From Trileptium ribeirensis (Eukaryota > Nematoda > Enoplea > Enoplida > Thoracostomopsidae), in NCBI GenBank assembly GCA_030248225.1, contig JASANE010017561.1, forward strand, positions 1 through 64,000: a stretch of 64,000 nucleotides of DNA, given 5' to 3'. Every line of letters starts with the position of its first letter. Position 1 is the stretch's first letter. Below the pieces are notes generated by a model. The model was not told the origin of the DNA and did not search any database. It was given only the letters and a program-made list of their open reading frames with translations. Below are positions 16,161 to 60,283 of this stretch, piece by piece. A program made the translations under genes and the position numbers.

Positions 16161-19100
16161 ACAGCCAATACTTACGCTAGGTTTGGCTGGAGGCCATGGT
16201 TCCGAGTGGACATAACCTAGGCTTATATGGAAATATAGTTATGCATATATATGTGTACTGCGTGACCTTCGTGACTCGGCGTGTCTATTTTTCCGCCCTA
16301 CCGTATCAAAACCTTTCTTTTATAGCATCCTTTGACGCCCTAAATTGCTTGACCACCATACTAACGACTGGTTTTTCTGGTAACCATCAAATCAGCGGTT
16401 GAAAGTACGCGTGTTTCCAAGTAGTCTACAGATCTAGGCATCTGACGAGGCCACGCAGGTCTCGACCTGACCAGTCATCCCGCTGTCATATCACTCATTT
16501 CCCTGTTTTATAATGCACCACGAAAATTCAACATAAGATTCTGTCAATTTGTACCAACCTTGTATTTCACCCTTGACCACAAATAGACTCATGTGACCCC
16601 TCATCCTACTCGCCTGCTCCTGGCAAATACAACCATACCCCACGGGTCTTTGTGCGACTTCTCCTTAGCCCACTATAACCTTTAAAATTGCCCCCAATTT
16701 GGCATTCCGACTGAAAGTGGGTACAAACCAACCAAAAATTTGTCCCTAATTCGAAAGTAGCTCCTCATTGCAATCGCCACGTCGAGACATCTTCAATGAT
16801 GCCCCAGGACCGTTAACCCGGGACGGCCGACAACGCGCCCCCACCATTACCGCCACTCTCTTTATCAGTCGCGACTTTAGTGCCCCTCTACTCGCTGCCG
16901 ATAAGGCAGGGAAAACACCCCTCGTTTGAATCGCCTTTCCAAGGCGAGTTCAACGATGCCCGGCGGGCGTCGCTCCGCCCTACTGCTAGCGCGGGAGAGC
17001 CCGCTGGAACTCCGTATACTAATATATGTCGGAACCCAAAATTGGGTCCCGACCCGACACTACGTCTACCCCCTCGTGTTTGGTATCGTTCGGCCCCGTT
17101 CTTCGTCCTGGGACCGAATTTTTCCCCAGCCCCTCGAAATTCCCTCGGGAACCCCCTGTCCCGACTCCCTTTCCGTGCCCTTTCTTTTCCGTTTTTCCTT
17201 TTCCTTTTTCACTCTCTCGAACCGATTTCTTTGGTCGGTTGTCGTTGCTGCTGTCGCCGTGGTTATTCTGTATGTGTGTGTGTGTCGTTGTTGTTGTGGT
17301 TGCTGTGTGGTTGTGCTGATGCTGTTGTTGTTGTGGTTCTGCGTGTTTCTAGTGTGAACTTGAGCGACCTTTCTGTCGCTCAGGTCGCCTGTGTGTCTTA
17401 TGTGTAGTGTGTGTTTATGTGCTCATGAGGAGTGTATGTATATGTGTATGTATATATGGATATATGTATATATATAGCATGTAAGAATATGACAAAAAAC
17501 AGGACGCGTAGGGACAAGACGTACAAAACGACGCTAAATTCATGAGTTTTACGGACGGACTGGACACATAGGATTAGGAAAGACGGGGGTAGCTTTAGGG
17601 CCCTCCGGCGGGCTCCGGGAGTTCCTGAATAGGTCCCCGGATAGATGAAGAGGTTCTTAGGAATGTGCTGCACCCCAGAACATGAAAGAAGCTCATTCCT
17701 ACCTTCGGTTCCCCTCCCCCTTCGGGACGTCTAAAGACGTCCTGTCGGGATATTTGAAATTCAGCTAGGAATGCTTAGTAATGTTTGGCTTTATCTTGTA
17801 AGCCAACATATAAACGTGCAATGTTTGCACGTTTATCCATGGATAGGGCGGTAAAATTTAGCCCCAGATGGCCTCTAAATAAGCTTAATTAAGTGATGAA
17901 TGAGGCAGCTAACTCGCCAAATAGCTGGAATTTGACCTCAAATCGGCAAGTTAGCTGGGGGAAATTTGATGAATGAGGACAAGAAGACAAAAAAGACCGA
18001 TTCCAGCTTACTCCAAGCATGCTAATACACCAAACTTGGTTTTGAAATTTTAAATTTGACGGGTGATTTAACCGTTTTCGTGGGACATTTGGGGGATAAC
18101 GACCAATCTAAGTTAGGTAAGAGGTTTAAAAGATCTGAGTAATGGATTCTGGATAAGTTTCTGACAAGAATTTGGGATTGCAGATGCGGGTAAAATCTGA
18201 GATTTTGGGAGAAAACTCACAGATGGTCGACCTCCGAGTATTAGGAGGGTTCAAATTTGATGTCGGCGATTTCGATTGAAGCCGACTCACTCTAAAGGGG
18301 ACCCAGGGTTTACGACAGATGTCAAAATCAAAATCGTGGGAATTTTTCGATTGGGCGCCCGGGTTTGAACTAAAAAAAGTGGGCGTTGAAAGAGCTTCTC
18401 CGATTGGAAAGCGACAAAATCGCTATCCTTCAACATAAGCGAAAATTTTGAGGCGACGACTACCGCGTCGTCTCTTGGAATCAGTTCGACTTCGATAGCG
18501 CGGTGTTCGGTCGACTTTACTGACCGGCTCCGACGCATTAGTTTTAATTATTTTCTGCGTTTGTTCAATTGCTTTCCCGTGTTCTGAGTTTTCGCGTTTG
18601 GATTGGAGGCGACATCCGGACAGACTTCCTAGGTCTCGCGAAGGGGGTTTGGCTTTTGCCACCCCGGATCAAAGACTGTAAGTGAACTTGAGTAGGACAG
18701 CCTGAAACATGGGGGTTTACTTTCCCCAGATGTAACAGAGACGATCCATCGACTTAAAATTTTGATCAATGCTGTTAAGGCTCTTGCTCCATAGGCCAAT
18801 TTCACTTCAGTCGCTGCACGCCCCTCGCCTTCAACTGAGCGGCTTGTTTTCATAAATCCTTTGACAAACCTCCGTGTGTCGAGTTCCGTCTTAGGCGTCG
18901 TGGGCCATCGCACGGGATGGTGATGAAATGTAGGCACCAAAGTCGAAGTCCTTCTGATTCCCCGTGGTCGTAGGTAAAACAAATCGAAAATGGACGCTTC
19001 TCGTCCATGCTTTTACATGATTTATCTCTCTTGAGTTAGGGCTGTCGAATTTTCCTGAGCTGACCACGGCAAAAGTTCACCTTGAAACCATAGGGAATTT

Positions 19101-19942
19101 CTTACTTGTTTCTGTTTGTGGTTATGGTTTATAAATTTCTAGCTTAATGGACCGTTCGATGCTCATGCCGCTGCTTGAGCTCGGACTGATGTTGCAGTTA
19201 GGGACGGAGGATTAGCCTCCGTCGGGCTTTAGAAAGCCCCGAAATTCCATTTATCAACCGAGCTAAGAAAATTTGGGGAACATCGAAAAGGCTAAACAAA
19301 TTCTAAGAACTTTAGCTTGAGCGTAAGGTCTTGGCACTCTGACAGGAGCGATCTTTAATACAATCTTTACACGATTTTGATAGTATCTATTTTGCTTGCC
19401 AGCCAGACGGTTAATTTCCGCTCTGCCTAGGGATCAACTACCGACGTCGCGAGTCCTCGACAGCCCCTCATGACTAAACTTACTAAGCACCTGTAAAAGA
19501 TATTACTACACCATGTCCGCTTCGAAATTGCCTTTGTTCGACTACTAAGTTTACTACTGCTCGCCATAGTACGTAGATGTGGTTAAGCTCGGCGATAGTG
19601 CGTAGGAAAACTCTCCGTGCTAAAACGAACCAACCGCATGGTTAGTGATCACCATCCACCACTGTGCCCGCTTCCAAAAGCCCGGCACCGTGCCCCGCCC
19701 CTAAGTAGCGAAAAGGAACTATAACATCCTCTTTTCAATAAAGGAAAAAATCGCGACCTCTCGCGATCCGTTTTGACCCCAAACCAAGCAAGTGCAAAAC
19801 ACCGTTTTCTTTTTGGAGCGACTTGATCGCTGAGTTTAAGTATTTTTCTAGTTTATCACTGGTTGCCCGTTAGGCTATGTACTATGTACGCCCCAGCTTT
19901 GAGTTTTACTGTTTTTCTCTCTCCTTTTTCAATTTCCCTTGC

Positions 19943-20022
19943 CAGGTTTCGATCCTGCACGGAGGATTCAAGTCCGCTGCAGGTCTTTCAGTATTAACCA
20001 CTCGACTATCGAGTTCTGAGAA
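19943..20022 (-). other. tRNA-like segment with Pol III A and B boxes (degenerate tRNA or SINE head)
   Basis: On the minus strand, tagtcgagtgg (around 20000-20010) matches the A-box consensus TRGYNNARNNG, and gatcgaaac (around 19950-19958) matches the B box GWTCRANNC, about 45 bp apart. A T-arm-like cagg/cctg stem encloses the B box. Acceptor and anticodon stems do not form well, so this is not a confident functional tRNA. Confidence 0.35.
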
Positions 20023-21282
20023 ATTTCAGTAAAATTTTGGTGATAACTCGACCGCACAATTTCGATAGTGCAGTCGAGCCACTGTACAATTTCGATGTGT
20101 ACAGTGTATTAAGGCAATAGGATGAGCTCGATAGGGAGAGGACGGCAACGCAAACAGCGACAAAGGAAACAAAAGGGAAACAAAAGAAACAAAGCAAGAA
20201 ACGAGGGAAAAGAGAGATACCAACCAGAGAGACGCCAACCAAAAGGGACGCGGACGCGTCTGCCCCCTGACTCGACTCTAATCGCACCCTAGAGGGCAAC
20301 CCCAGCCAAGATCGTCGAGTAGACATGATCACCCGCTTGAAACCGCTAGGACAGCGATGGTGATCGCTTGGCAGATCGTTGTAGATGGAAATTGCCCAGG
20401 CATGCACTCCTTAGGACCGTTGAAAAGTGACGAAGGGCGACCCCATCAACGTGCTCGAACGGCGTCCCCGATACTTATGACGTAGTTTAACTATTCCTCC
20501 ACCACCAAAATTCAACCCGCCGTTAGAAGCCAATCACAAATGAACTTTGAGGGCTCGGGACAACTGAGCTTCCGTTTGAAGTGCTGGAGATGATGAAGTT
20601 AAAATAATTGGCGATTCGCGCACAACCCGTCACGAGGGGGAAACATTTTGGGATACTCGATAAGGATGTTAGGCATTTTGTAGGATAAGGAATGCGGACG
20701 AACAGGGATTCCACCTCTGACGACCGAGTAGACACATCGCTTATTGTAGCCTGATTACTATTAACTTTCGCTCGTTTGTGCCATAAGTGACTATGTGTTC
20801 TTGACTGTGTAACGATTTGTTTAATAGTTGATTTTGATAATATGACCATGTTTCATCGTGCGCCGAAAACTCTGTGCTTTCTCGTACCCCGAGTACTGCC
20901 TTTTTGACGAAAGAAACGAACCCTCCCCTTTTTGCGTGTAACGCCGCGCGCTATTACGAGCGAACTTCGAAGCACGCCGAATACATAACCCGAGCTGGAG
21001 CGGACTTAGCTGAACGCCTCGGGTACAGATTTCGGTCCGGTAATACCGGGAACGACTTCGCTCGCGCCACCCTTTTTGTTTTCCCTTTTTGCATTGGACA
21101 AAGGGAGCGAATGCTCGGATTGGTACATTATTACGGTTTTCGCTGGTATTTGTTCGTGTACCTTACTGGATGCCCGTTATTGACTAATGCTGTACATAGC
21201 TTTAAATAAACTCTTGAAAATTACGTGACGCGTCCCGTGTTATTGGATTCTTAGCGTGATAAGGACGTCCAAATGGACGGGC

Positions 21283-21705
21283 CGACCCTTCGTGCCACGG
21301 CTTGCGGACGCAAATACCCCAAGCCCTGACGCGAACGGTCCGCCGCCAAGACTGAACTGTTTGTGTAATGGTCTTACGGCGAGAATGGTCCACCAAATTA
21401 CTTAGCAAATTTACTGGCCCAATAGTCACACTCACACGAAAGATAAAATTTACTAAAAAAAACTTTGTCACTCGATACCAACACAGACAAAATTCGACCC
21501 TTCGTGCCACGGCTTGCGGACGCAAATACCCCAAGCCCTGACGCGAACGGTCCGCCGCCAAGACTGAACTGTTTGTGTAATGGTCTTACGGCGAGAATGG
21601 TCCACCAAATTACTTAGCAAATTTACTGGCCCAATAGTCACACTCACACGAAAGATAAAATTTACTAAAAAAACTTTGTCACTCGATACCAACACAGACA
21701 AAATT
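21283..21705. repeat. Tandem duplication, two copies of 212 bp
   Basis: Copies 21283-21494 and 21495-21705 are identical except for one A in an A-run. Short inverted sequences agcgtgat and atcacgct lie just outside the pair. The near identity points to a recent event within the old left arm. Confidence 0.9.
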
Positions 21706-22367
21706 ATCACGCTACAAAATAGGTAGTCCGACGTTAAACATTCAGGGACTGTCGGAACCCTGTGGGGGCCATATGGCTACAACTGATTAAGTGTTCTGCT
21801 GAGGATAAACTAAGTGAAACTTAAAATTTACCTTGCCAAAATCAACCTTATCCTGCGTTTCACTTTAGATTACGCTAGACAAAACAACTTCCATTAGCTT
21901 AGGACAGGGAATATCGGTTTGACATTATGACCTGTGAGCAGGTTTCGGTGTCAACCTCCCTGGGGGACCTCAGTGATCATGCCAGGATACTAGACACGTG
22001 CGCAACCAATCGGGCGGGGTCCGAACACATCCCGTGAAGCGCGCCTGCGGCCTGCTAAGCTCCGTAACTTCTTGGGTCTGACCAAGAAAAGTGGCTAAAC
22101 CGCAAATTTTAGGGTCCACCCTTGAGGTTATGATAGCCGGGGTCGTAAGGGCATGGTGTTAGGAAGTTGCGCCATGCAGCTGCGTCACCGTTATTACAAT
22201 ACACATGTTCGTAATAGCCAACATTTTAAAGTTTAAGAGATCTCTATACCACACACACAAACCGAAGACGAAAGTACGTAAGAATCACTTGCTGGCGGCG
22301 AAAGTGCAAGGATTCCGACGTTTTAACTTTCGAATACCGTAAAATCCACTTCGGCTAGACATCCGAT

Positions 22368-25975: not shown

Positions 25976-26430
25976 ATGTATTTACCTATAAATATATAAA
26001 ATATAATAAATCTATATAAATCTCAAAAGTAACCCATCCCCATAAATTCCCCAAAACCTAAATTTCTTAAATAAAATTTATACAAAACACACTTTTTCTT
26101 TTTCCCCACCCTTTTTCCTACAATATATACCTCACCCACCCTTCTCTTTTATACACAACTAAAATTCTACCCAAAATTTATTTTTCCCTTTTTCCCATTT
26201 TTCTACTAAAATTCAAACTTCTAAAATTCTCCAATACCTAACCAAACCTCTCCAAAATTTAATATTTTCTTCCCCTCACCGCCTCTATTAAAATATATAA
26301 ACCTCCCCTTTTCCTTCTTACCTTTTCCCATAAAATTTTCTTTTCCTATACTTTCAGTTTTTCCTCATTTTTCTCCATTTTGCAAACATTCCCCCATTCC
26401 CTCACCGTTACCCATTCAGAGTTGGTTTGC
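25976..26430. repeat. Pyrimidine-rich tract opposite in sense to the 23.4-24.5 kb tract
   Basis: The + strand is dominated by C and T (tttttccccaccc-type words) for about 400 bp. In composition it is the complement of the purine tract upstream, so the two tracts bracket 24541-25975 in mirror fashion. Confidence 0.6.
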
Positions 26431-26692
26431 ACCTTCCAAGATCCACACATTTATTCCCTGCGTGTCTACCATTTTTCAAATGAGGGTTTTCGAAGCCAAA
26501 CAACTCTTGAATTTCGGGAAATAATTTTATTTCTGCGTTATCTAGCAAATATACACTAACTATATCACATACCTATCGGGAAGCTGTACATCCAATACTC
26601 TAACTCTGGTTACACAAAATGCCGTTGGAAACTCAACAGCCGGTTCGCTCAAGTCACAAACAACTACAACTTCCATGATTGATTACAATATT

Positions 26693-27202
26693 TTATTGAA
26701 GCCTTTTAAGAATATTATACACTGTATTGCACAACAAATAAAAATCATTTACACATTTACAACCTGTTACCACTACATTCCCACTACTGTAAATCAAAGC
26801 CACTCCCTTACGTAGGGTTAATTTCATGCTGTTGTGAAGCTCTGTTTCATACATTACCGTGTACTGGTGTCTAAGACTTTCATAAATACTTAGTAAATTC
26901 AACTTAAACCCACTTCTCAACATACCAACCACATTCTTCAGCTCAATCGCCAATTCCTCAATACATCGGTAATCCAATTTCTCAATTTCTTCTTTCACCT
27001 TAACCACAATTTCTCTACCTTCTGCCTCTGATCTAACACCTACCAACACCATTTTTCCATTTGAAAATAGTAAAACTGTACCACTGGGTTGAAATTTCCA
27101 AATACCACCATTAAACCGCAGCATATCATAATCAAAATCATCAATTTCACATGATAAGTACATCAAGTCAACACTACATCCAATGTTCGCTGTTATTGTC
27201 AT
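26693..27202 (-). CDS. TATA-binding-protein-like protein (two-repeat TBP fold)
   Basis: A 169-residue protein starting at ATG 27202, 5 nt after the NADAR stop (27208), so the two are probably co-transcribed. It shows the bipartite TBP pattern. Repeat 1 has NIGCSVDL at 6-13 and FSNGKMVLVGVRSE at 46-59. Repeat 2 has ELKNVVGMLRSGFKLNL at 87-103, a YE..L segment near 118-122, and YSSGNVVVTGCKC at 138-150, ending in a YNILKRL helix. In TBP the S/G-K-hV-TG strands form the DNA-contacting saddle. An aromatic is kept before each (F46, Y138). Length equals a bare TBP core with no N-terminal extension. The longer frame open upstream to 27694 only shadows the NADAR gene. The likely role is promoter binding for element genes. 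The fold call rests on reading conserved motifs by eye. Confidence 0.8.
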   Translation of the reverse strand: MTITANIGCSVDLMYLSCEIDDFDYDMLRFNGGIWKFQPSGTVLLFSNGKMVLVGVRSEAEGREIVVKVKEEIEKLDYRCIEELAIELKNVVGMLRSGFKLNLLSIYESLRHQYTVMYETELHNSMKLTLRKGVALIYSSGNVVVTGCKCVNDFYLLCNTVYNILKRLQ

Positions 27203-27207
27203 ATTAG

Positions 27208-27711
27208 TTATTTCGCTTCGTCTCGAATTTCCATCCAAAGTCCACCCAAAATGTTCTTTCCTTTCCACTTCTCCACGTCCTTGCTGTTTGCATCCTGAAT
27301 GTTGATCCCGATTCCCCAATATTGATCCCATTCCGACGCCTCCGCTATGATTGCTTGCTCCGTTCCGATCAATGCCGCTCGTACATGAGGTAGTTGCTCC
27401 AATTTTGTCTGTAGTCCAATCTTCATTATTGACGCCGCATTTTCGTACCATTTCTCCGCATCGAAGTTTTTGATCTGACGACCCAGCTTCTTCTGTTGTG
27501 ACGGTTTGAAAGTCGTCATTATCGCTTGATGAGATTCGTCGTCGTTGAAGAACCGCGCCTTCTCGCTTTGATACCATTGTTCCACGCAATTGTACTTGAC
27601 GCCATTGACCATTATCCGTCCCACATTGAAGTTGCTGAACACGCTCCATCCCGAACGAAATAAGACGAGTGGTGTTCCGTCGGTTGTTGTACAATATTTG
27701 GTATGTTCCAT
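27208..27711 (-). CDS. NADAR-domain protein (YbiA-like, ADP-ribose-related hydrolase)
   Basis: A 167-residue single-domain protein. Family motifs seen: FSNF at about residues 25-28, the CVEQWYQSEKARFF segment at about 42-55 with acidic and Lys residues, GRQIKNFDAEKWYENAASIM at about 77-96, EASEWDQYWGIGI at about 125-137, and the terminal GKNILGGLWMEIR. Domain size equals the family norm. NADAR enzymes act on ADP-ribose-linked or N-glycosidic substrates, and some remove ADP-ribose from guanine in DNA. In a mobile element this could counter ADP-ribosylating defence; that role is inferred. Upstream, an AT-rich leader of about 200 bp has three copies of an actatttaata-like word (27722-27776). Confidence 0.88.
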   Translation of the reverse strand: MEHTKYCTTTDGTPLVLFRSGWSVFSNFNVGRIMVNGVKYNCVEQWYQSEKARFFNDDESHQAIMTTFKPSQQKKLGRQIKNFDAEKWYENAASIMKIGLQTKLEQLPHVRAALIGTEQAIIAEASEWDQYWGIGINIQDANSKDVEKWKGKNILGGLWMEIRDEAK

Positions 27712-27907
27712 GTTATTTAATAGTATATTACTATTTAATAATGTTAGCTAATATATTGCTACTATTTAATAAAATCGTAACAATGCTTTAGACGGAGAGC
27801 GATTAAACAAAATACGACCAATTTCAATGAAAGCAAAACTAAGACTGATCAGCTTTTGAAAATACACATCTTTATATAGTTGTATGCTCGATTTTGATTG
27901 GTTGATG
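27712..27907 (-). promoter_or_regulatory. AT-rich leader upstream of NADAR-TBP pair
   Basis: This gap holds repeated actatttaata-type words close to the NADAR start and a ctatataaaga TATA-like site on the minus strand near 27873. The shared TCTTAAAAAGG motif marks its far edge (27908-27918). It is the longest leader in front of any gene pair of the cassette, so it may carry the main control region for NADAR and TBP. Confidence 0.4.
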
Positions 27908-27918
27908 CCTTTTTAAGA
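27908..27918 (-). promoter_or_regulatory. Shared boundary motif TCTTAAAAAGG (copy at 139-aa gene stop)
   Basis: An exact 11-mer on the minus strand, shared with 28623 and 29414. It overlaps the stop codon of the 139-aa gene and lies 196 nt before the NADAR start. It could be a promoter element or a 3'-end signal. Confidence 0.45.
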
Positions 27919-28332
27919 ATAAAGTGTTCTCCATTTAGTCTTATGTTCCACAGCTCTGCTTTTCCTACCCCTCCCAAATGCTGATAGGGGTACACTGCCT
28001 AGTAGCGTTTCAAATTTGTCGGAGTCAAGAGGTCGAGGGGGTGAAAAGTTAACATCTGATACAAAGTACTTGACCAAATCAAATATGTTGGAACCAACAG
28101 TTTTATCTGGGTAAATCACTTGGTTGTTATCATTCAACTTTAAATCTTTTATATTGTTTAACATTAATTTAGCTTTATTTCGTAAATTTTTAGGAAACAT
28201 TAGCGACAAGTCTGGTTTTTCTTTGCTTTCGTAAACAGTTACTTCATTTCTAACTGGTACTTTATCCTGCAGCCCACCATTTTTCATGACATCTAGCCAA
28301 CTTACTGGTACCACCGCCATTTTACGTGCCAT
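27913..28332 (-). CDS. 139-aa Maverick-associated protein of unknown function
   Basis: The start overlaps the end of the upstream 91-aa gene by 11 nt, indicating a joint transcript. The N-terminus is MARKMAVVP. The central part has a KAKLMLNNIKDL helix, then NNQVIYPDKTVGSNIFDLVKYF, a pattern I associate with small proteins found beside Maverick-type genes in invertebrates. The C-terminal 30 residues are basic. It has no Cys cluster, signal peptide or transmembrane helix. Function unknown; a nucleic-acid-binding core or scaffolding role would fit the basic tail. Confidence 0.7.
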   Translation of the reverse strand: MARKMAVVPVSWLDVMKNGGLQDKVPVRNEVTVYESKEKPDLSLMFPKNLRNKAKLMLNNIKDLKLNDNNQVIYPDKTVGSNIFDLVKYFVSDVNFSPPRPLDSDKFETLLGSVPLSAFGRGRKSRAVEHKTKWRTLYS

Positions 28333-28597
28333 AATGTTTATTAAAGTAATTAATCAAATACTTTACAACAGTAGGTTTAAGCAACTTTTTCTTTCTTGAA
28401 ACCGAAATGCGTTTACTTGCAATGCTTTTAAGACCTTTACGTTTGGTTTGGGTGTTTAGTACTATGTTATATGCAATCTCCGCAAATGCGTGAAGTAGAG
28501 ATAGAGGTGCAACTTTGATAACAGCTGAAACAACTTTAGAAGATGATCCACCAAGAAACTTTAACGCTGGTAAATTACGTTCAATATTTCGAGACAT
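28322..28597 (-). CDS. 91-aa basic protein, Maverick-associated, unknown function
   Basis: A Lys/Arg-rich protein, mostly helical, with NLPALKFLGG near the start, an AFAEIAYNIVLN helix in the middle, and a C-terminal RKKKLLKPTVVKYLI segment. A similar arrangement (Leu-rich start, central E..NVL helix, KKK-LL end) is common in small ORFs that accompany Maverick elements. The upstream motif TCTTAAAAAGG ends 25 nt before the ATG. Function unknown; possibly a core-like DNA-binding protein. Confidence 0.68.
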   Translation of the reverse strand: MSRNIERNLPALKFLGGSSSKVVSAVIKVAPLSLLHAFAEIAYNIVLNTQTKRKGLKSIASKRISVSRKKKLLKPTVVKYLINYFNKHYGT

Positions 28598-28622: not shown

Positions 28623-28633
28623 CCTTTTTAAGA
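28623..28633 (-). promoter_or_regulatory. Shared boundary motif TCTTAAAAAGG (before 91-aa gene)
   Basis: Exact 11-mer, 25 nt upstream of the 91-aa gene start. It overlaps the ATPase stop codon (its TAA lies inside the motif). Confidence 0.5.
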
Positions 28634-29386
28634 GTATACAAACAACTGTTCATCGTCAGGGAATATATTCTGTCGTACCCTTAGTACACTCTCTGTAGCT
28701 GGTTTCAAATCAAGAAACAAGTACCCAAACGGTTCTTTCGTTGCTTGCTCAAATGCGCTTGATAGAAAGTTTGGTTTTGAAGGCCACATTTGCCTTCCCA
28801 AGGTATGTATCATTGACTGATCTCGAAAGTTGGGAAACAACACCATATACTGAGCATTGCGGGTGATTGTTCGCATATACTTGCCTTCATGGTACAAGTT
28901 TTGGGTTACAAATATCGTACTGAGCTTGTTGTGACGCATGCGAGAAAACGCTGCTGCAAGCTTTTTATCATTTGCTGCCTCAATCATTAAGTCATCCAGT
29001 ACACAGATTGTGTGCCCATTAGATGAGGGAAACTCTGTGGGTATACCTTCGTATAGTTCTAAATTTGGTATCTCGTTCATCATATTACTATAAATATCCT
29101 GAAAAATGCTATAACAGTATAAAATTTTATCTATCTTTTCATCAAATAGCCCATGTTTAAATAATCGATATATCCATCTAGTTTTTCCACTCCCGGTTTG
29201 ACCACTTATAACACACGTAAACGGTAATTCCAGAGGTAATAGTACGTTATCAGTATCAAAACTTTGAACGTCAACGTGAGAAACCGGTGGTAAATTTTGC
29301 GGTTGAGCTGTACAAGTTTTCTTATGTCTATGCAAATGCTGACGAGTAGTGTAAGCACGATTACAGTTGACACATACATGTTCCAT
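28628..29386 (-). CDS. Packaging-type P-loop ATPase with N-terminal C2H2 finger
   Basis: A 252-residue protein. Residues 5-25 form a C2H2 finger (CVNCNRAYTTRQHLHRHKKTC). The ATPase core follows: Walker A GQTGSGKT at 62-69, Walker B ICVLDDLM at about 127-134, and a sensor-like VTQNLY after a strand at about 177-182. This matches the A32/FtsK-HerA-like packaging ATPases of Mavericks and related DNA viruses, which normally load DNA into capsids. A packaging ATPase without capsid genes in the cassette is odd: the element may rely on capsid proteins from elsewhere, or the ATPase has another job. The start is the first Met, 27 nt after the shared boundary motif. Confidence 0.9.
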   Translation of the reverse strand: MEHVCVNCNRAYTTRQHLHRHKKTCTAQPQNLPPVSHVDVQSFDTDNVLLPLELPFTCVISGQTGSGKTRWIYRLFKHGLFDEKIDKILYCYSIFQDIYSNMMNEIPNLELYEGIPTEFPSSNGHTICVLDDLMIEAANDKKLAAAFSRMRHNKLSTIFVTQNLYHEGKYMRTITRNAQYMVLFPNFRDQSMIHTLGRQMWPSKPNFLSSAFEQATKEPFGYLFLDLKPATESVLRVRQNIFPDDEQLFVYS

Positions 29387-29413: not shown

Positions 29414-29424
29414 CCTTTTTAAGA
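29414..29424 (-). promoter_or_regulatory. Shared boundary motif TCTTAAAAAGG (before ATPase)
   Basis: Exact 11-mer, 27 nt upstream of the ATPase ATG, in true intergenic DNA, so this copy is not explained by a stop codon. Confidence 0.5.
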
Positions 29425-29427: not shown

Positions 29428-29695
29428 TTGTACCCCTATTTTGTACCACTATAGGTGTCATATGAACCTCCATGTACCCCTATTCTGTACACCTGTGGTA
29501 GCTCTATGGGTACGGATTGTACCCCTATTCTGTACCCTACAAGTATGTTTGAACCCATTTGGTTACATTGTATACTCATATTCTGTACCCATCTAGGTGC
29601 GTTTTGTGTCCCCATGTACCCATGTTCTGCAGCTCTACGGCTACGTTTTGTACCCTTAAATAGGTCGCAAATCGCGTTCATGTACCCATGAGTTC
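29428..29695. repeat. Degenerate GTACCC repeat array between integrase and ATPase
   Basis: Words of the type tgtacccctattctgtaccc recur about every 45-50 bp (near 29428, 29473, 29518, 29570, 29618, 29649, 29683). The array keeps weak open frames on both strands and runs into the last codons of the integrase gene. It could be a binding array or a recombination by-product. Confidence 0.65.
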
Positions 29696-30714
29696 ATTGA
29701 TTTGGGGTACCCCAACCACTTGACTAGGTATTCTATCCCTTTCTTAGTCTTGCGTTTACGTATTATTTTCTCGATTTTATATGTATCGTCTGCAAGATAA
29801 ACTTTTTGAAGTTCCTGAGTGTAAAATCTACCTAAAATAGTTTCATTATTTGCATCATTTATCTCATATACAGGAGGGTTGAATGGAAGTTGATTATTGA
29901 CTGTAAATACTTCACGCGACCAATGCTGATTGAACCCACGTTCAAACGGTAAACGTTCCTTACTGATGCGCACAACGTCACCAAGTTGAAATTTATATCG
30001 AACATCAATGTCTTCAGCTGGGAAGAGCTTCTCTCGTGTATCATCCTCGTCATCCACCGAAACATTGGAGGGAATAAATCCATAACTATTTTCGGTGTTG
30101 TTATATGTTTTCACTATACTTTGCAAATCATCTATATATCGCCGAGAATTATTCGCCGTCAGAAACTTGTAAATTTTACTCTTTAGTGTGCGTATGAATC
30201 GTTCTGCCATACTTGCCTTAGTTTCTTTATTCTTTGCGGTATATACATTAATACCTTTACTTTTACAGTAGTCATAAACTAAACTATTTACAAACTCTTT
30301 ACCGTTATCAGTTTGAAAGTTATCGGGTTTTGTTTCTTCAAACACTGATTTGAGAGCTGTTAGAATGGTATTTGCTGCTTTGTTTTTTAATGGAACAACC
30401 CATGCATACTTTGAAAAACAATCAATCACAACAAGCAAGTACTTGTAACCATCGTTGTAAGTTGCGAGGTTAGACATGTCAGCTAAATCCGCTTGATACA
30501 GGTCGCCTATACCTTTCACTACAGTACGACGTCTCTTAAATCTAAGCCTACGCGGTTTATGGAGAGTATAGGTTTCTTGTGCTCGTAACCATTCTTGTAC
30601 ATCTTTCAACTTAACACTTAAACCACGTTTTCGAGCCTCGCGATATAATTTAGGTGCTGTGGAAAACCCCGCAACGTTAGTGGGGTCGTAATAAATAGAT
30701 TTAAGCTTATCCAT
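29656..30714 (-). CDS. Maverick integrase with C-terminal chromodomain
   Basis: A 352-residue protein of the retroviral-integrase superfamily. An N-terminal helical region (ARKRGLSVKLKDVQEWL) precedes the core. The core has D76 (QADLADM), D136 (FQTDNGKEF) and E171 (SMAERFIRTLKSKIY), a D-D-34-E triad. A chromodomain-like module occupies about 312-352 (YLVKWLGYPKSMNSWVHE), which in chromointegrases targets histone marks. This is the c-integrase that inserts Mavericks. It is full length and intact. The ATG lies 28 nt after a motif variant at 30743. Confidence 0.93.
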   Translation of the reverse strand: MDKLKSIYYDPTNVAGFSTAPKLYREARKRGLSVKLKDVQEWLRAQETYTLHKPRRLRFKRRRTVVKGIGDLYQADLADMSNLATYNDGYKYLLVVIDCFSKYAWVVPLKNKAANTILTALKSVFEETKPDNFQTDNGKEFVNSLVYDYCKSKGINVYTAKNKETKASMAERFIRTLKSKIYKFLTANNSRRYIDDLQSIVKTYNNTENSYGFIPSNVSVDDEDDTREKLFPAEDIDVRYKFQLGDVVRISKERLPFERGFNQHWSREVFTVNNQLPFNPPVYEINDANNETILGRFYTQELQKVYLADDTYKIEKIIRKRKTKKGIEYLVKWLGYPKSMNSWVHERDLRPI

Positions 30715-30742: not shown

Positions 30743-30752
30743 GCTTTTAAGA
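30743..30752 (-). promoter_or_regulatory. Shared boundary motif variant TCTTAAAAGC (before integrase)
   Basis: A 10-mer variant (one A shorter) placed 28 nt upstream of the integrase ATG, matching the 25-28 nt spacing seen for the 91-aa gene and the ATPase. Confidence 0.4.
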
Positions 30753-30897: not shown

Positions 30898-33800
30898 TCA
30901 ATGATCATTACACATACACTCCAATAACTTTAAAAACTCAATATCGCAATGTCCATATGCATATGATGATACGCCGTCACGCGTGATATACCGTTTGTCA
31001 TCGAATGCTGATAGACTAATTTTATTTAATGTCACTGTATTCAGTATGTGCTTGTTCGCTTGAATCATATTCATTTTGTGTCGCATCGTATCACTGTTTA
31101 GTAAAGTGTCCACATAGTTCTGATGTTTAATCTCTTTCTTGACTACCACCTTCTTTATCCCCTTTGCCCGTTTCTTCTCATTACCCCCACATTTGATGCT
31201 ATACATCTTTGATCGTAGTCCCACAAACTCTTCAATTGGTACCCCCGATGTTTCGTCTTTCATCTTACCCAAAACTTTCTTATTCACCGTCGAATGTAGT
31301 TGGTGTCCTTCTGGGTAGTCACTAGTGTCGAAAAATGATGAATTTGCTTCCATATCGTTGTAGATATCATCGGTGTTAACTTCATAGCATAGCGAGTCTG
31401 TGTCTGTAAAAAGAAGTCGACATCGGTTGCCATACAAAGTCTTCATGTAGCCGTAATGGAAATCATACATCAATGTTTTTGATAGGTCCAGAACGGTGAA
31501 GCCTATGTAAATTGGTTTACACAAGTTGACCGTCTTGCGGTGCATTTTGACTGCTACTAGATTCTCATTGAAAATAGATGACATTGAGTACCTGGGGTTT
31601 GCGACTAACTTTGTGTATTTTTTCTCATCGGTTACCAGATGTACATCGACATATCCCCTAACGTTCTCCATTGTCTTGCCAAACACTGCATTGTTTAAAA
31701 GTTTATATAAGTCTTTCTCAAAATCGCTTGTTGCTACCTTCCTCATCTCCGTGTTGAATGTGATGTATCGCTCCATCCACGCCCATTGAAAGAAGGAGAC
31801 GACCCGGTGCACCTTTGTGAGTTTCATGCCGAGACGTAAGTATTGTTGGAGATTTCGAATGTGAAGTTTGTAGTGCTGCTTGTCATTAAGATTGGGTACC
31901 AACTTTTCAACCGCTGCATTTGATACGTTGAGTGTTTGCTTAATGTCTACGCAATACGACGATAACATATTATCAGTGATTTTCATCCGCTCGGGTGCGA
32001 GAGGGTAGTCATTGTGAAGATCATGAAGCTCCTCGGGGTACTCCAAATCTACTTCCAAAACATAGCCAATGTCTCCATTCATATCCACCGTTGCCCAATC
32101 GATAACATCCATCTCCTCGCGTTGTAACCATTTGAAAGTATGACATGGTAATTTTTGTATCATCGTCCATCCGTAAAGATTGTTTGCATCGAGGTATATG
32201 ATGTAGTTATTTGGAAGTGAGGGGTCGTATCCAGCGACATAATGGTTGTTCGCCCTCGCGTATCTGTGAGAAATGACCGACACTCCACCACGAATGCCTT
32301 CTTCGAAGAACGCGTACATGTCTCCGTCATTGAGGAGATCCAATTTGACACCGGTAAGCCGTAAACATGCGCCCCATGCGAAACTAGGAAGGGTAACATA
32401 ATGCACCGGATCGAGTCGATATTTGTCGAGCGCAAATTTTCTAAAGTTCTCAAAAACATCACACAATAGCAACATGTCCGTTTTGAGGTAGATGTCGTGA
32501 TAATCGCCGAGATTTTTAATTTCCATTTCATCCCACACTGACAGCGCATGAGAGTAATCTTCGTAACTGATATATTCACCGCTTAGCGAGGAATAAAATT
32601 CGAATTGCGGGGGAAATTGTTGTTCTTTGAATCGATCGAAGTCGTCCATGTATTCGTAAGGGTAAATTCCTTTGCGCATCATTAGATCCACTTTGCCACT
32701 AAATGTCTTCTTCATTGCTACAAATGCTTCCATATTCTTCTTTTTGAGGTTGTCTGTAAGTGTTTGTAGAGAGGATGGTAGAAACTGGATTGTATCTATG
32801 AAACGAATTTTCCATCCAATCTCGTCTTCGCCCCCATCATCGTCATTGCCCAAAATAAAATCGATACCATCAGCGTCATCATCCCAGCACTCACCATCAT
32901 CCTCATCGTCATCCTCTGCTGCGTCTATAACGAATGGGTTGCATCTCGGTTTACTAGCACTGTGTTTCCTACCCTTCTTTGATTTGCGTTTGATACTGAA
33001 GGTCATGTAATCCTCCATTCCTTTTGCGATACATTCGATTTCAAGACCACTGTTTTTACATACTTCACCAAGCTGTTGCATGATGAGGTGACCATCGTAT
33101 CTTCGAAGGTTATGGAAAAGCACCGTAACATCTCGACTGAGACGATAACCAATGTTGCACTTGACATGCGCCGCACCGCGATATCGTCCACAAAAATGAC
33201 AGTGATCTTTTGCCTTGTCTTCCTTGTTCAACCATCCACTGCATAAGTAGCATTCAACCGCATTTCGATGGTTCATCCGATCATCCTCGGTCATAGTGAT
33301 TGACTTTTGATTGATCATATATCGATCTTGAAACGAGGTTGCCAAATCAATGATATTGTGTAAGAATTTCTTTACCACATCTTCACCGCGATAAATGATG
33401 GGGTCACCAAATTGCACTTTGTCGTCACAACAACCAAACGCTTCCACGAGTCCGTATCCGCATGGTGTGTGATGTTGATATTTGTTGGTATAGGAGGACG
33501 AGGATGATGGTAGACATGTATGTACTTTTTGGAGCACACACTCGAAGTCAGCGTAGATGACGTATGGTGATCGTGGCATACGGTGTAGATTGTTGAACTG
33601 AAGGGTTGAATTTGAAGGTGGAACTTGAACTCGTGAGGGTTGATCGTTCCTACACCGTTGCATGTGCTCGTCCCGTTGTTGTTTAGTGTAACATGGAATT
33701 AAGCATTTATCGCAAAAATATTTCTTATGTTGATAGTTCCTCTGATCAAACAACAAAGCGTCCAAATTGCGTATTAAGCAATAGTGATCTTGGTAAAATA

Positions 33801-34050
33801 GGAGGTGAACATATCGACAATGTTGGGTTTTCGATATAAATAGGGGATAGATTTCGCCATCTTCGAGTCCGTAGACATTCACAGCGATTTTATTCTGTCG
33901 CTCAAAACGTGGAATATCGAGAAGTCTGACGGGGTAATCAATGTTTGACATGTCGAGATCGTTGACATATGGTTCATAATTGTGACTCGTTCCGCATGCT
34001 GTTTTTTGTTCAACGGATGTAGTGCTGCTAACATCGACCATAAAAAACAT
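30898..34050 (-). CDS. Protein-primed-type family B DNA polymerase
   Basis: A 1050-residue intact protein. An N-terminal C2H2-like finger lies at 113-133. 3'-5' exonuclease motifs: YADFE at 166-170 (Exo I), HNLRRYDG at 313-320 (Exo II), YLKTD.LLL at 521-529 (Exo III). Between Exo I and II, a CYLC..HCHFCGRYRGAAH..C cluster at 267-298 looks like the zinc/HNH-type insert found in many Maverick polymerases. An acidic low-complexity stretch covers 378-410. Polymerase motifs: YLDANNLYG at 619-627 (A), KLLNNAVFGKTMEN at 783-796 (B), TDTDS at 882-886 (C). It replicates the element. The start overlaps the C2H2 gene by 172 nt in another frame; a later Met is possible. Confidence 0.94.
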   Translation of the reverse strand: MFFMVDVSSTTSVEQKTACGTSHNYEPYVNDLDMSNIDYPVRLLDIPRFERQNKIAVNVYGLEDGEIYPLFISKTQHCRYVHLLFYQDHYCLIRNLDALLFDQRNYQHKKYFCDKCLIPCYTKQQRDEHMQRCRNDQPSRVQVPPSNSTLQFNNLHRMPRSPYVIYADFECVLQKVHTCLPSSSSSYTNKYQHHTPCGYGLVEAFGCCDDKVQFGDPIIYRGEDVVKKFLHNIIDLATSFQDRYMINQKSITMTEDDRMNHRNAVECYLCSGWLNKEDKAKDHCHFCGRYRGAAHVKCNIGYRLSRDVTVLFHNLRRYDGHLIMQQLGEVCKNSGLEIECIAKGMEDYMTFSIKRKSKKGRKHSASKPRCNPFVIDAAEDDDEDDGECWDDDADGIDFILGNDDDGGEDEIGWKIRFIDTIQFLPSSLQTLTDNLKKKNMEAFVAMKKTFSGKVDLMMRKGIYPYEYMDDFDRFKEQQFPPQFEFYSSLSGEYISYEDYSHALSVWDEMEIKNLGDYHDIYLKTDMLLLCDVFENFRKFALDKYRLDPVHYVTLPSFAWGACLRLTGVKLDLLNDGDMYAFFEEGIRGGVSVISHRYARANNHYVAGYDPSLPNNYIIYLDANNLYGWTMIQKLPCHTFKWLQREEMDVIDWATVDMNGDIGYVLEVDLEYPEELHDLHNDYPLAPERMKITDNMLSSYCVDIKQTLNVSNAAVEKLVPNLNDKQHYKLHIRNLQQYLRLGMKLTKVHRVVSFFQWAWMERYITFNTEMRKVATSDFEKDLYKLLNNAVFGKTMENVRGYVDVHLVTDEKKYTKLVANPRYSMSSIFNENLVAVKMHRKTVNLCKPIYIGFTVLDLSKTLMYDFHYGYMKTLYGNRCRLLFTDTDSLCYEVNTDDIYNDMEANSSFFDTSDYPEGHQLHSTVNKKVLGKMKDETSGVPIEEFVGLRSKMYSIKCGGNEKKRAKGIKKVVVKKEIKHQNYVDTLLNSDTMRHKMNMIQANKHILNTVTLNKISLSAFDDKRYITRDGVSSYAYGHCDIEFLKLLECMCNDH

Positions 34051-34892
34051 TTATTGTCTGTGTTTTGAATGTTGAGAACTGTGTATTTCTTTCGAATTGA
34101 TGCTGGGAGTTCAATGTATGATGATGCTCGTAAGGGTTGGTAAACGCTGATGTGGAGATCTGCATGTTTGACGTCATCCAACACCCAACCAGACCCCTTT
34201 GCCTCAAATTGTCCTAGCGCTGTCGTTAGTTCGCTGAATACCATAGTAACTTCATCGCTGATGCACGAACCTGGTAAAATTATGCGCGTCTTGTTGTTGA
34301 AATGTGCTGTCATTGTTGAACTATCAAGCTTTCTGAATGAGCACTGAACGCTGATCTTTAGTTTGATACCACGGTGACTTCGCTGTTGAAGTAGTTTCTC
34401 CAACATTGATCTTAACTGATTGAGGAATACTGAAAGATCATTTACGACACCACTTGGTTGGATGTAGTAACTTCGAATGAATCCTTTGAGTGCTCTCATC
34501 CATTGAAGCAACTTGATTGAATCGTTCTGATCGACTGTTTTTGATGGTTGTTTGCACCCATTGATTTCGTTTGCCATTTTCTTTATTTCATCGAGTACTT
34601 CTTCATCGACGCGTCGCGTCTTTACCGGTGATTCTGCTTGCACCACTTGATCTGACGCCCGTTTTCGTGATTGCACTTGTCGCTGCATTGTTGAAGTTGT
34701 GTAGCTTGCTGAATCCATCGTCGTGAGCCCATGATACTTTGCCATGTGACGTTTGAGGTTGTCCCGTCTCGTGAAAGTTGCGTCGCAATAATAACATTTT
34801 AAATTAATCTGATTATGTAGTGTCTTTTTATGAAGTGCCATATGATCGCGTCGTGTGAAATTTTGACTGCATATATTACATACGAATGCCAT
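33879..34892 (-). CDS. C2H2 zinc-finger protein of the Maverick-like element
   Basis: A 337-residue protein. Two tandem C2H2 fingers lie at about residues 5-26 and 33-55 (C-X2-C...H-X4-H types). A KR-rich linker with RKRA follows, then about 220 residues without a known domain. The 3' end overlaps the start of PolB. The finger style resembles the single fingers at the N-termini of the ATPase and in PolB, so the element may use related fingers as common DNA or partner-binding modules. It could regulate transcription or mark the origin end. It is the first gene of the cassette, with a motif variant directly upstream. Confidence 0.8.
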   Translation of the reverse strand: MAFVCNICSQNFTRRDHMALHKKTLHNQINLKCYYCDATFTRRDNLKRHMAKYHGLTTMDSASYTTSTMQRQVQSRKRASDQVVQAESPVKTRRVDEEVLDEIKKMANEINGCKQPSKTVDQNDSIKLLQWMRALKGFIRSYYIQPSGVVNDLSVFLNQLRSMLEKLLQQRSHRGIKLKISVQCSFRKLDSSTMTAHFNNKTRIILPGSCISDEVTMVFSELTTALGQFEAKGSGWVLDDVKHADLHISVYQPLRASSYIELPASIRKKYTVLNIQNTDNKCFLWSMLAALHPLNKKQHAERVTIMNHMSTISTCQTLITPSDFSIFHVLSDRIKSL

Positions 34893-34896: not shown

Positions 34897-34906
34897 TCTT
34901 TTAAGA
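34897..34906 (-). promoter_or_regulatory. Shared boundary motif variant TCTTAAAAGA (before C2H2 gene)
   Basis: A 10-mer variant only 4 nt before the C2H2 gene's first Met. The closer spacing differs from the 25-28 nt of other copies; the true start may be a later Met. Confidence 0.35.
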
Positions 34907-36539
34907 GATTATAGTTTATTAATACTGGGTTAAAATACTGAAATAAGAGAGCTCAATAAATATAGACAACCGTTCTGAACCGACGCAAAAGATAGAATGC
35001 CTGGATACCACACATACACGGCTTTATATACTATGTAGCAAAACCACGCGCTGGTAGGGAACAATGAATTGTAGCCTTCACTTGGGAGGGGGAAATTTCA
35101 TTTCATTGCAAGCGGCTAGAAGTTGGTATAGTTCCAACAAATTGTGCGTCATCATTTTGGAGCGTTACTATCGTTAGATTTCCATAAAGGGGAGGTTGTG
35201 CGGAAATGCCTTAACTTAGAGAGTTATTTTAATACGCATTACCGTTGGGTAGCTATATAATCATTTTAGCTGTGCCACAACATTATATTCGGATTCTCCA
35301 TTACCGAAAACGTATATTTACATACATTTAGGAGAGCCTGCCTTTGCGTGACTATATATAGAGAAGCAATTCCACCATATATTTTGTGCACGCTATTACG
35401 TTAGAGTAGCCATGTAATTATTTTAAAGGGTTTGTGATAACAAATTCGTATTCCAGATACTAGAGTCCTGTATACCACGGTGAAGGTCCCATAGTTCCAT
35501 AAGTATTAAATTATGACAGCTATTTAATCATATTAGAGGGTTGATGATATTAATTTTTGATTTCCCATGACAGAAACCGTATACATTAAAAAATTAATGA
35601 GTAATTGCTAACACTTTGAGGGCTATTTTAATAATATTTTACTTTCCTTAATGTCATGAATTTGGATTACTCTATATTCACAGAGATGGTGTTTCAAATG
35701 TCAAGGTTGTAGAAACACACTTCAAATTCACTGCAACTAAGTATTGTTCTACAAAGTCAAAGGAACTGATTAAAGAAACACTCAAGTTCCGTGAAATGAT
35801 GCAACAGTTCGCTTAGCCTAAAATGTAGCAGCGATTAAGCTGAATTAAAATTAGTACACAAATTATTTAATGAAGTACAATCCAGCAGGGGTGACTACTG
35901 ACCCCCGGCCACAGTTTGCAATTCGACTTTACCATATCCTACACCAAGAAACCGAGATATAAACAATTAAGCAATCACAACAGACATTAAGTGTAAATAA
36001 TTGAATAATATGTACGACAGCCATTTATATATCGTGGTATCTTGCACAAGATTACGATTACGAAACCAATTATGACGCCATCCTCACCCATCCCATATAT
36101 GTAGAATATAACTCGTTCAATAACATATATTTCCAAACAAACAAACAGATGTGATATTATACGCGATGAATGCATAAACAACTCACATTGGTTATGTGTC
36201 AGAACGCAAAACAATAAACGACGTGCTACGTATGAGATCTGTATTATTATTAGCCGAGGATGGTGTTTCTACACATATTGTTGCCTTAAATAAATATAGA
36301 TAGTTATGGCGTCATTGCCTCTATGTTCTCATATGTTTTTATTATAAATATACTCGGCATCAATTATAATAAGCAAATAAAATAATTGAATCGATGTAAT
36401 AATATGTACAAATGTGTCTATAATATAATATTTTGATTTTGTTTAATATATACAACATATACTCACGTAAATAAAATATATGATTCATCGATTACGAAAT
36501 AACCCCAACCTCCTCCGGGAGGGGGGGGCCAAAGCTCTA
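34907..36539. repeat. AT-rich non-coding region with diverged repeats at 35250-35640
   Basis: Three related blocks with agctatttaatcattttag-like openings followed by an attc/accgaaa..gtata segment lie near 35250, 35410 and 35519. The rest shows no gene. The PolB cassette's outer terminus should lie here, but no inverted repeat to the 26 kb side was seen. Confidence 0.35.
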
Positions 36540-38235
36540 TTTTTCATCTACTATTCAGTTTCAAGCATTACTAATTCATTTCTCCTTTACCTAGTCAGTT
36601 AAATCAGAATAAGTGGAGAGATGAGTGGATGAATCTTGAACTTATTATGGTTGACTTTCAATCATTACGGGTTCATTTCTGCTTTACCTAGTTGGTTTGT
36701 TCGATCACTTATTATGATTGACTTTCAAGCATTACGGGTTCATTTTTGCTTTACCTAGTTGGTTTGTTCGATAACTTATTATGATTCAGTTTCATGCATT
36801 ACTGATTCATTTCCGCTTTACCTATTCAGTTAAATCATAATAAGTGGAGAATTGAGTTGATGAATATTGAACTTATTATGATTGAGTTTCAAGCATTACG
36901 GTACATTTCTGCTTTACCTAGTCGGTTGGTTCGTCCACTTATCATGATTCACTTTAAAGCATTATGGGTTCATTTCTGCTTTACCTAGTTGGTTTGTTCG
37001 ATAACTTATTATGATTCAGTTTCAAGCATTACTGATTCATTTCTGCTTTACCTATTCAGATAAATCATACTAAGTAGAGCAATGAGTGGATGAATCTTGA
37101 ACTTACTATGATTGAGTTTCAAGCATTACGGTAGATTTCTGCTTTACCTAGTCGGTTCGTTCGTCCACTTATCATGATTGACTTTCAAACATGACGTGTT
37201 CATTTCTGCTTTACCTAGTTGGTTTGTTCGATCGCTTATTATGACTGAGTGGCAAGTGTTACGGGTTTATTTCTGCTTTACCTAGAAGGTTGGTTCTTCC
37301 ACTTATTATGTTTCAGCTTCAAGCATTACTGGTGCATTTACACTTTACGGTTGGGTCGTCCACTTATAATGATTGACTTTCAAGCATTACGGGTTCATTT
37401 CTGTTTTACCTAGTTGGTTTGTTTCGTCAGCTTCTTATGATTGAGATTAAAGCATTACGGTGTATTTCTAGTTTACTTAGTCAGTTTGTTCGATCACTTA
37501 TTACGGTTGAGTTCAAGCATTACGGGTTCATTTCTGCTTTACCTAGTCAGTTTGTCGAAACTTATTATGACTTAGCTTCCTTCAATCATTAAGGGTTCGT
37601 TTCTGCCTTACTTAGTCGGTTGGCTCGTCCACATATTTTGATTGCGTTTTAAGCACTGCAGGTTCACTTGTGTTTTCCCTAGTTGGTTGGTTCGTCCAGT
37701 TTTCATAATTGGATTTCAAGTATTACGGGTTCATTTCTGCTTTGCTTAGTTGGCTTGTTCGATCACTTATTATGATTAAGTTTCAAGCATTATGAGTTAG
37801 TTTCTGCTTTACGTAGTTGGTTGGCTTTTCCACGTATTTTGATTGAGTTACAAGCTATGCCGGTTCATTTCGGCTTTCCCTAGTTGGCTGGTTCATCCAC
37901 ATATTAATTATGATTGAGTTTCAAGCATTACGGGTTCATTTGTGCTTTACCAAGTGCGTTGATTCGTTCACTTATTGTGATTGACTTTCAAGCATTACTA
38001 TCGATTCATGTATGGCCTACCTAGTCGGTAGGTTTAAGTCCATTTGCTATGATTCAGTTTCAACCATTACGGGTTCATTTCTGCATTACCGAGTCGGTTG
38101 GTTCGCCCACTTATTACGGTTTAGTTTCAAAATTAAGGGTTCATTTCTGCTTAACAAATCGGTTGGTTCATCCACTTATTATGATTGAGTTTCGAACATT
38201 AGTGTTTCATGTCTGCTTATCTAGTCTGTACAGCA
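36540..38235. repeat. Satellite array, about 66-bp monomers
   Basis: About 25 diverged copies of a unit with ttatgattgagtttcaagc, attacgggttcatttctgc and tttacctagttggttggttc in order. Copies vary by point changes and small indels. No real ORF. Adjacent copies are not identical, so the array is old or homogenises poorly. Confidence 0.88.
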
Positions 38236-49085: not shown

Positions 49086-49571
49086 CGTTTTAAAGGATTA
49101 GAAAGAGGTGTCTAAATTTTTTGCAGTCAGCAAAAATATAACTTAAAATACTACCAGCAAAAGTTTATGATGGCTGTTTGAGAATAATTATGACACTCTC
49201 GCCGTTATCATATAAACGCATCGGACATAACGCTATCTATTTTCGGCTTTAGGCCCTCGGTTTGCAATCCCCTCCTTTTGGGGGTTTCTGATTTTTAAGT
49301 AACAAAATTATGCAAAAACCATTTCCAGAAGATTTTTGAGGGATTTTGTTTGATGATTTTTTCTTAGTCCCAGAAAACTAGGGAACTTGAAGGGAAATTT
49401 TTGTTCAAACGACCCCCAAACTGTGGTGGCCGCAACGAATTTTCTATGATACCATGAGCCCCCTGTCCCCCTAAAAAGTGATGGATAAGTCCCAAAACCA
49501 GGGGGAGTTGTAACGTCAAAAGGACCATGTCCTGCTCTCTGGTGTAGTGATTTCGAAGAATGTCATAGTCA

Positions 49572-50163
49572 TGTGAATGTGAACTTTTAAATATACACCT
49601 CCTGGTTGTTATATAATGCTGCGAGGACACTTTTAAATATACATCCTTTTCTGTGACTATTCTGTGAATGTGAACTTTTAAATATACACCTCCTGGTTGT
49701 TATATAAGGCTGCGAGGACACTTTTAAATATACATCCTTTTCTGTGTCTATTCTGTGAATGTGAACTTTTAAATATACACCTCCTGGTTGTTATATAAGG
49801 TGGCGAGGACACTTTTAAATATACATCCTTTTCTGTGTTTATTGTGTGAATGTGAACTTTTAAATATACACCTCCTGGTTGTTATATAAGGCTGCGAGGA
49901 CACTTTTAAATATACATCCTTATGTGTATCCTACTGTGAATGTGAACTTTTAAATATACACCTCCTGGTTGTTATATAAGGCTGCGAGGACACTTTTAAA
50001 TATACATCCTTTTCTGTGACTATTCTGTGAATGTGAACTTTTAAATATACACCTCCTGGTTGTTATATAAGGCGGCGGGGACACTTTTAAATATACATCC
50101 TTTTCTGTGACTATTCTGTGAATGTGAACTTTTAAATATACACCTCCTGTTTGTTATATAAGG
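49572..50163. repeat. 91-bp tandem repeats, left array
   Basis: About 6.5 copies of a unit containing gtgaatgtgaacttttaa, cacctcctggttgttatat and gaggacacttttaaatatac. The unit itself has two related halves (aacttttaaatatacacc and acacttttaaatatacatc). Confidence 0.9.
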
Positions 50164-60275: not shown

Positions 60276-60283
60276 CTGTATGA

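Follow-up and report, generated by a model that had tools for sequence, protein, structure and literature searches.

Predicted pairing of an element-encoded TATA-binding protein with TATA-like boxes in Maverick-type elements of the nematode Trileptium ribeirensis

The question raised by this locus is what a gene for a TATA-binding protein (TBP) may do within a mobile element. The window, that is, the whole stretch of DNA analysed here (64,000 nucleotides from position 1 of contig JASANE010017561.1 of Trileptium ribeirensis, assembly GCA_030248225.1), carries such a gene in a Maverick/Polinton-like element, and a short TATA-like box (CTTAAAAG in the family of elements to which the window belongs) stands upstream of most of the element genes. 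Judged from sequence comparisons, the TBP and the box probably form a private TBP–promoter pair of the element that serves a gene class predicted to be late. The TBP gene is located as follows:

26693..27202, (-): TBP homologue, 169 amino acids (aa), two TBP repeats; evidence from PF00352, a PDB match and omega over copies

The TBP gene and its linkage to the element

The identity of the 169-aa product was examined by a Pfam profile search, in which PF00352 was matched in two stretches above the curated cut-off (E=2.1e-27), and by a search of the PDB, in which human TBP was the best match (E=8.9e-18, residues 3-167). The two-repeat pattern on which the sequence-only reading had relied, with SNGK/SSGN strand motifs at residues 46-59 and 138-151, was present, and the top of the PDB search was taken by human TBP and not by a different repeat fold. 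At the level of sequence, the product is confirmed as a true TBP homologue.

The gap of 5 nt between the stop codon of the upstream NADAR gene and the TBP start, from which membership in a Maverick-type cassette had been proposed, was likewise found, and the membership was borne out by synteny in 20 of 20 further copies. The proposal that TBP is the last gene of the cassette had to be given up: another gene (beginning MEVVVV..., here referred to as the post-TBP gene) starts 16 nt past the TBP stop and runs on in the copies L002-L020.

The genome (687 Mb, 20,229 contigs) was searched for further copies. A protein search with the element TBP gave at least 150 genomic places (the best 150 of 769 candidates), and a search with the Pfam TBP model gave at least 150 places above the cut-off (among 975 candidates), two of which are exons of the spliced cellular TBP on contig C9496, with 79-87% identity to human TBP. 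Twenty further TBP copies with their upstream side were taken from the top protein matches. The NADAR-TBP pair, which was to be sought in other elements, was found directly adjacent, with NADAR 5' of TBP, in all 20 copies of this genome (NADAR is broken in L026 and L033, and 22 residues are left in L039); the 139-aa gene was present in 19, the A32-like ATPase in 18, the integrase in 18 and PolB in 16. On a wider scale, a TBP place followed directly after at least 79 of the first 100 NADAR places, 56 of them at exactly equal spacing, where 100 of 150 NADAR places were compared with 100 of 150 TBP places plus 24 TBP places chosen on NADAR contigs; the reverse count, of TBP places against the same 100 NADAR places, was 55/100.

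The TBP gene is under purifying selection. Over 23 intact copies, the median synonymous divergence (dS) was 0.48, the median nonsynonymous divergence (dN) 0.10 and the median omega 0.19, a value that is biased downward by the selection of copies by protein similarity, in our judgement by too little to mimic 0.19 at such dS. In all 246 copy pairs with dS >0.05, dN was lower than dS. The element TBPs share only 23-37% identity with the host TBP exons, and in a phylogenetic tree they form one group apart from host TBP with modest support (84/73). Within this tree two element-TBP clades are well supported, one of which includes the proteins P0122 and P0123 from other sources.

Several further observations concern the TBP sequences themselves. 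The codon right before the TBP ATG (window 27203-27210; L001-L020) is AAT in 20/20 copies, matching the first conserved Asn of TBP, which in L049 and L052 is coded within the gene. A NADAR-TBP fusion by frameshift, suggested by this codon and by the absence of stops in the TBP frame across the window copy of NADAR, was rejected: 9 of 13 full-length copies have a stop in that frame, and its omega is 2.3. TBP residues ~60-105 occur in L001-L020 in two main segment versions with a mosaic look, which suggests recombination or gene conversion among elements. Fourteen full-length TBPs of family B (see below) are at least 97% identical to the query and free of stops, which suggests recent spread. One database protein of the archaeal type (P0003, 283 aa) has three TBP repeats instead of two.

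Boxes upstream of the element genes and DNA contacts of the TBPs

The box and the canonical TATA motif were located in the window at the following positions:

34898..34906, (-): box TCTTAAAAG, 13 nt before the PolB ATG; 8/8 copies at -9 to -13
30744..30752, (-): box TCTTAAAAG, 37 nt before the integrase (INT) ATG; 16/18 copies
29416..29424, (-): box TCTTAAAAA, 37 nt before the A32 ATG; 16/19 copies
28625..28633, (-): box TCTTAAAAA at the A32 stop codon, 35 nt upstream of the ORF100 ATG
28425..28433, (-): box TCTTAAAAG within ORF100, 100 nt before the 139-aa gene; 20/20 copies
27910..27918, (-): box TCTTAAAAA at the stop codon ending the 139-aa gene, on the upstream side of NADAR; 19/20 copies
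26703..26711, (-): box TCTTAAAAG within the final codons of TBP, 34 nt upstream of the ATG of the post-TBP gene; 20/20 copies
27870..27878, (-): canonical TATA motif TATATAAAG upstream of NADAR-TBP
35022..35030, (-): canonical TATA motif TATATAAAG upstream of PolB

In the window family (family A), TCTTAAAA was present in at least half of the copies in six of seven upstream gene classes (all but TBP), and in 200 block-permuted controls no 8-mer was common to more than two gene classes. Sense matches to CTTAAAA(A/G) preceded PolB in 8/8 copies (-9 to -13), INT in 16/18 (median -38.5), A32 in 16/19 (-32 to -37), the post-TBP gene in 20/20 (-34), the 139-aa gene in 20/20 (-100) and NADAR in 19/20 (-127 to -211); TBP had none (0/21), and the antisense orientation was found in 0 of 126 upstream sequences. 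Over 20 family-A loci (170.7 kb), the same motif occurred 154 times in sense and 6 times in antisense. Outside the element, TCTTAAAA(A/G) occurred twice in 55.3 kb of the window, both strands included. Spacings of -34 to -37 were found in 5/5 slots of the family (INT, A32, post-TBP, basic ORF and MCP).

The motif TATAWAW had another distribution: within 230 nt, it preceded NADAR in 20/20 copies (-93 to -172) and PolB in 7/8 (in six copies at -122 to -143 and in one at -36 only; L042 has none). The corresponding counts were 1/19 for A32, 6/18, scattered, for INT, 3/20 for the 139-aa gene, 1/21 for TBP and 1/20 for the post-TBP gene. The variant box before most genes and TATAWAW before NADAR-TBP and PolB together indicate two putative promoter classes in the window family.

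Two further families were available at one locus each (B, L051+L056; C, L050+L057). In comparison with the window, the identities of integrase, A32 and PolB are 50%, 50% and 63% for family B and 52%, 54% and 63% for family C. The top strand-biased 10-mer of an unguided count was ACATGAAAAG in family B (8 sense, 0 antisense) and ACATAAAAAG in family C (4 sense, 0 antisense, plus two variants). These boxes lie at -34 to -43 in 6/6 slots of family B (the membrane-protein (TM) gene, INT, A32, ORF100, NADAR and post-TBP) and at -32 to -36 in 5/6 slots of family C. In shuffled windows, the mean numbers of boxes with a spacing near -35 were 0.03 (A), 0.03 (B) and 0.13 (C), with maxima of 1 or 2. The ACAT box was found in neither orientation in the 20 family-A loci (0 sense, 0 antisense), and the family-A box was absent from both strands of family B. 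The TM gene has a shifted position between the families, yet it bears the box of its own family in B and C.

The residues of the TBPs at DNA-contact positions were compared in yeast numbering; the roles of the residues (DNA contacts, four intercalating Phe, TFIIB loop) are assigned to the element TBPs by analogy with cellular TBP. The canonical residues were found in host, human and archaeal TBPs at every covered contact position. The DNA contacts are changed in two different ways in the two element-TBP clades. Window-type TBPs (families A, D, E and F) carry the substitutions F190H/Y, P191N and T124V, whereas families B and C keep F190 and P191 and show F116W, N159S, V161T and L205S. The positions that presumably hold the four intercalating Phe read F, F, H, Y/F in the window family and F, W, F, F in families B and C. 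The element TBPs mostly retain the loop that binds TFIIB (E186/E188/L189).

Five more subfamilies with window-type stirrups (ELN, ELQ, ELH, ELH and ERH) were examined in a follow-up, four of them being placed in clade I by residues only. As predicted, CTTAAAA(A/G) stands before the post-TBP gene in 4/4 subfamilies that have this gene, with no ACAT box; the fifth (L069) lacks both the post-TBP gene and the box. L053 ends before the TBP end and so could not reveal a box. Where the post-TBP boxes lie in TBP codons, the surrounding residues vary (ILKR, ILKK, MLKS) and the box letters are constant. Family E (L049) has a box at -37 before TBP itself.

Gene content and limits of the element

The remaining genes of the element in the window are listed below, beginning with the one directly upstream of TBP; ORF denotes an open reading frame.

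27208..27711, (-): NADAR-domain protein, 167 aa, immediately 5' of TBP; PF08719 E=4.8e-39
27913..28332, (-): conserved 139-aa protein (ORF139); no Pfam/PHROG match
28322..28597, (-): ORF100, a small ORF, conserved and basic, located between A32 and the 139-aa gene; open frame, no Pfam match
28628..29386, (-): A32-like packaging ATPase whose N-terminus has a C2H2 finger-like stretch; PF04665 E=2.1e-6
29656..30714, (-): integrase (rve, INT) with a C-terminal chromodomain; PF00665 E=4.2e-13, PF00385 E=6.3e-11
30898..34892, (-): PolB-like gene with N-terminal C2H2 fingers, in two overlapping frames (30898-34050, 33879-34892); motifs by eye
26420..26676, (-): what is left of the post-TBP gene (MEVVVVCDLSEP...), shortened internally and breaking off at 26420; continues in L002-L020

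The A32 product of family B matched PF04665 at E=2.3e-8. The PolB assignment rests on the motifs DANNLYG, NNAVFGK and FTDTDS as recognised by eye, and the gene had no match to the Pfam PolB models and none in the PDB. In L054, the only copy that was read further, the post-TBP gene is followed by a short basic ORF, a 446-aa ORF and a TM protein. The 446-aa ORF has by eye the look of a double jelly-roll capsid protein, with a match to Capsid_N below the cut-off (E=0.085) and no relevant match in the PDB. In the window family the TM gene (L054 1644-2153) follows the capsid-like gene, and in families B and C (L056, L057) it stands between PolB and the integrase. An adenovirus-like cysteine protease was not seen among the ORFs scanned in these incomplete elements.

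Natural element ends, with terminal inverted repeats and a 6-bp target duplication, were not located at the loci examined. Position 26420, at which homology to other copies stops, had been considered as such an end with a 149-bp terminal repeat; this was rejected, as the block codes for part of the post-TBP gene, which runs on in those copies. The inverted repeats 18199-22207 and 44126-47288, which flank the element region with ~67-95% identity by segment, were rejected as element ends, being diverged. A decayed second element in L034 was too degraded to serve as a control. For COI, the assembly yielded nothing beyond one decayed fragment. Elsewhere in the window, tandem arrays with units of 67 nt and 91 nt lie at 36553-38218 and 49481-50000, and a 63-nt tandem repeat at 59634-60283 has an open frame that repeats MTNTYYPSHGIIDVIGSYWSK. 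A NADAR-like stretch (24% NADAR match) lies in a large retroelement-like ORF on the reverse strand of L039 (3927-5159), which the window ORF 13602-14762 resembles by eye.

Interpretation and comparison with known systems

The suggestion of the sequence-only reading that the TBP is a promoter factor dedicated to the element gains from the shared TATA-like box, which differs where the TBP contacts differ; DNA binding and transcription stay at the level of prediction. In the proposed mechanism, host TBP would first switch on NADAR-TBP and PolB via their canonical TATA boxes (early). The element TBP would then bind the variant box of its family (CTTAAAAG for the window family), and its conserved loop for TFIIB could bring host TFIIB and RNA polymerase II to the genes for integrase, ATPase and capsid and to further genes (late). 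TBP and box would have diverged together between Maverick families of one genome. Beyond the pairing itself, which we consider probable, we lean slightly towards the broader proposal that several Maverick families each have their own orthogonal core promoter system for RNA polymerase II, in which a private TBP and a TATA-like box co-diversify and the late genes answer only to their own TBP.

A number of points weigh against the proposed pairing. Only two TBP clades differ in the box, so the covariation amounts to a single contrast, and the window-family TBP begins after the first conserved Asn position. The exact box is absent before INT in 2/18 copies and before A32 in 3/19, and the family-A TM gene has a near match only. 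Some boxes lie within coding sequence (TBP end, ORF100, basic ORF), as does one of the eight family B boxes (in the TM gene). In family B the spacing for A32 and ORF100 was measured from the second possible ATG; in family C, ORF100 is preceded by ACATGAAACG, and CTTAAAAG occurs once in sense inside NADAR (L050) and once in antisense (L057). The PolB box, 9-13 nt from the ATG (window, L025, L041-L046), is too near for a TATA box. With a box at -35 from the ATG and the usual TATA-to-start spacing, the leader would be only ~5 nt, and no clear initiator motif was found downstream of the box.

Some of these points would be expected if the box were a transcription-start, RNA-processing or translation signal and the element TBP acted otherwise: the box is near the ATG (PolB, -9 to -13), in many cases runs across the preceding gene's stop codon and has no visible initiator downstream. 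We regard this explanation as unlikely, given that the AAAAG core of the box resembles TATAAAAG, that a spacing near -35 is kept in three families, that two window-family genes bear canonical TATA motifs instead, farther out, and that the box letters differ between families whose TBPs differ. Retention of the TFIIB loop residues alongside several altered DNA contacts could also be read as the mark of a decoy or shut-off factor, which titrates host TFIIB/TFIIA or displaces host TBP while the boxes are read by another protein (e.g., host TBP or a host factor); a pure decoy leaves the family-specific boxes in matching slots unexplained, however, and the window family retains three of the four intercalating aromatic positions, and we hold this to be more doubtful still.

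The best solved relatives of the element TBP are cellular TBPs, and mobile elements pick up host genes, so that a passenger copy of host TBP, without a function in the element, also had to be considered. This is very improbable in view of an omega of 0.19 at a median dS of 0.48 (lowered somewhat by the similarity-based choice of copies), the fixed TBP slot in at least three divergent families, the identity of 23-37% to the host TBP exons and the grouping of the element TBPs away from host TBP (84/73, modest). The private TBP–promoter pair is the reading followed below.

The nearest parallel is found in the herpesviruses. According to PMC4893493, the TBP-like proteins of beta- and gammaherpesviruses (Epstein–Barr virus BcRF1, Kaposi's sarcoma-associated herpesvirus ORF24, human cytomegalovirus UL87) recognise TATT at late promoters and work there with the host RNA polymerase II, TATA being retained at early genes, and the beta/gamma proteins have ~10% identity to TBP and need five partner proteins. 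A TBP encoded by the virus or element and a variant TATA-like box occur in both systems, lateness and binding being predictions in the present case; the element TBP differs in being recognisable by sequence, in its boxes (CTTAAAAG or ACAT(A/G)AAAAG) and in its location in a Maverick-like element. Partner proteins of the element TBP were not identified, no comparison with the five herpesvirus partners having been made. By analogy, the element TBP most likely works like a herpesvirus TATT-binding TBP, though it is not classed as a member of that group.

TBP genes are also reported, in PMC10132985 and PMC10675990, from mirusviruses/giant viruses and other viral elements. The likeness lies in a TBP homologue in a eukaryotic DNA virus. 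To our knowledge, no NADAR gene or box is linked to the TBPs of mirusviruses or giant viruses. No relatives of the element TBP, PolB, NADAR or P0122 were found in IMG/VR, and eight IMG/VR contigs with TBPs (from the family alignment) showed no other element gene by tblastn. Maverick/Polinton elements and adintoviruses carry an integrase with chromodomain, PolB, an A32-like ATPase and a capsid gene; the present elements share the rve integrase with chromodomain, the PolB-like gene, the A32-like ATPase and, in other copies, a capsid-like gene. NADAR and TBP are, as far as we know, not standard genes of either group. A literature search, with most subscription journals outside its coverage, found no description of TBP in Maverick/Polinton elements, and the main text of PMC11071296 makes no mention of TATA, NADAR, promoter or Maverick. 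With cellular TBP and TBP-related factors, the element TBPs share the two-repeat domain and the TFIIB loop residues; they differ in that contacts common to human, host and archaeal TBPs are altered.

Few transcription factors are as conserved as cellular TBP, whose DNA contacts are near-constant from archaea to humans. In the mobile elements of this one genome, TBPs with changed contacts, along with boxes to match, seem to have arisen on more than one occasion, which makes a change of TBP specificity directly testable. If the orthogonal family systems are real, they would provide a natural series of evolved TBP specificities, and Mavericks would gain an early/late gene programme comparable to that of herpesviruses. 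The box may help to find and annotate such elements elsewhere. A family-specific box together with an element TBP suggests a private gene-switching system operating in the host nucleus.
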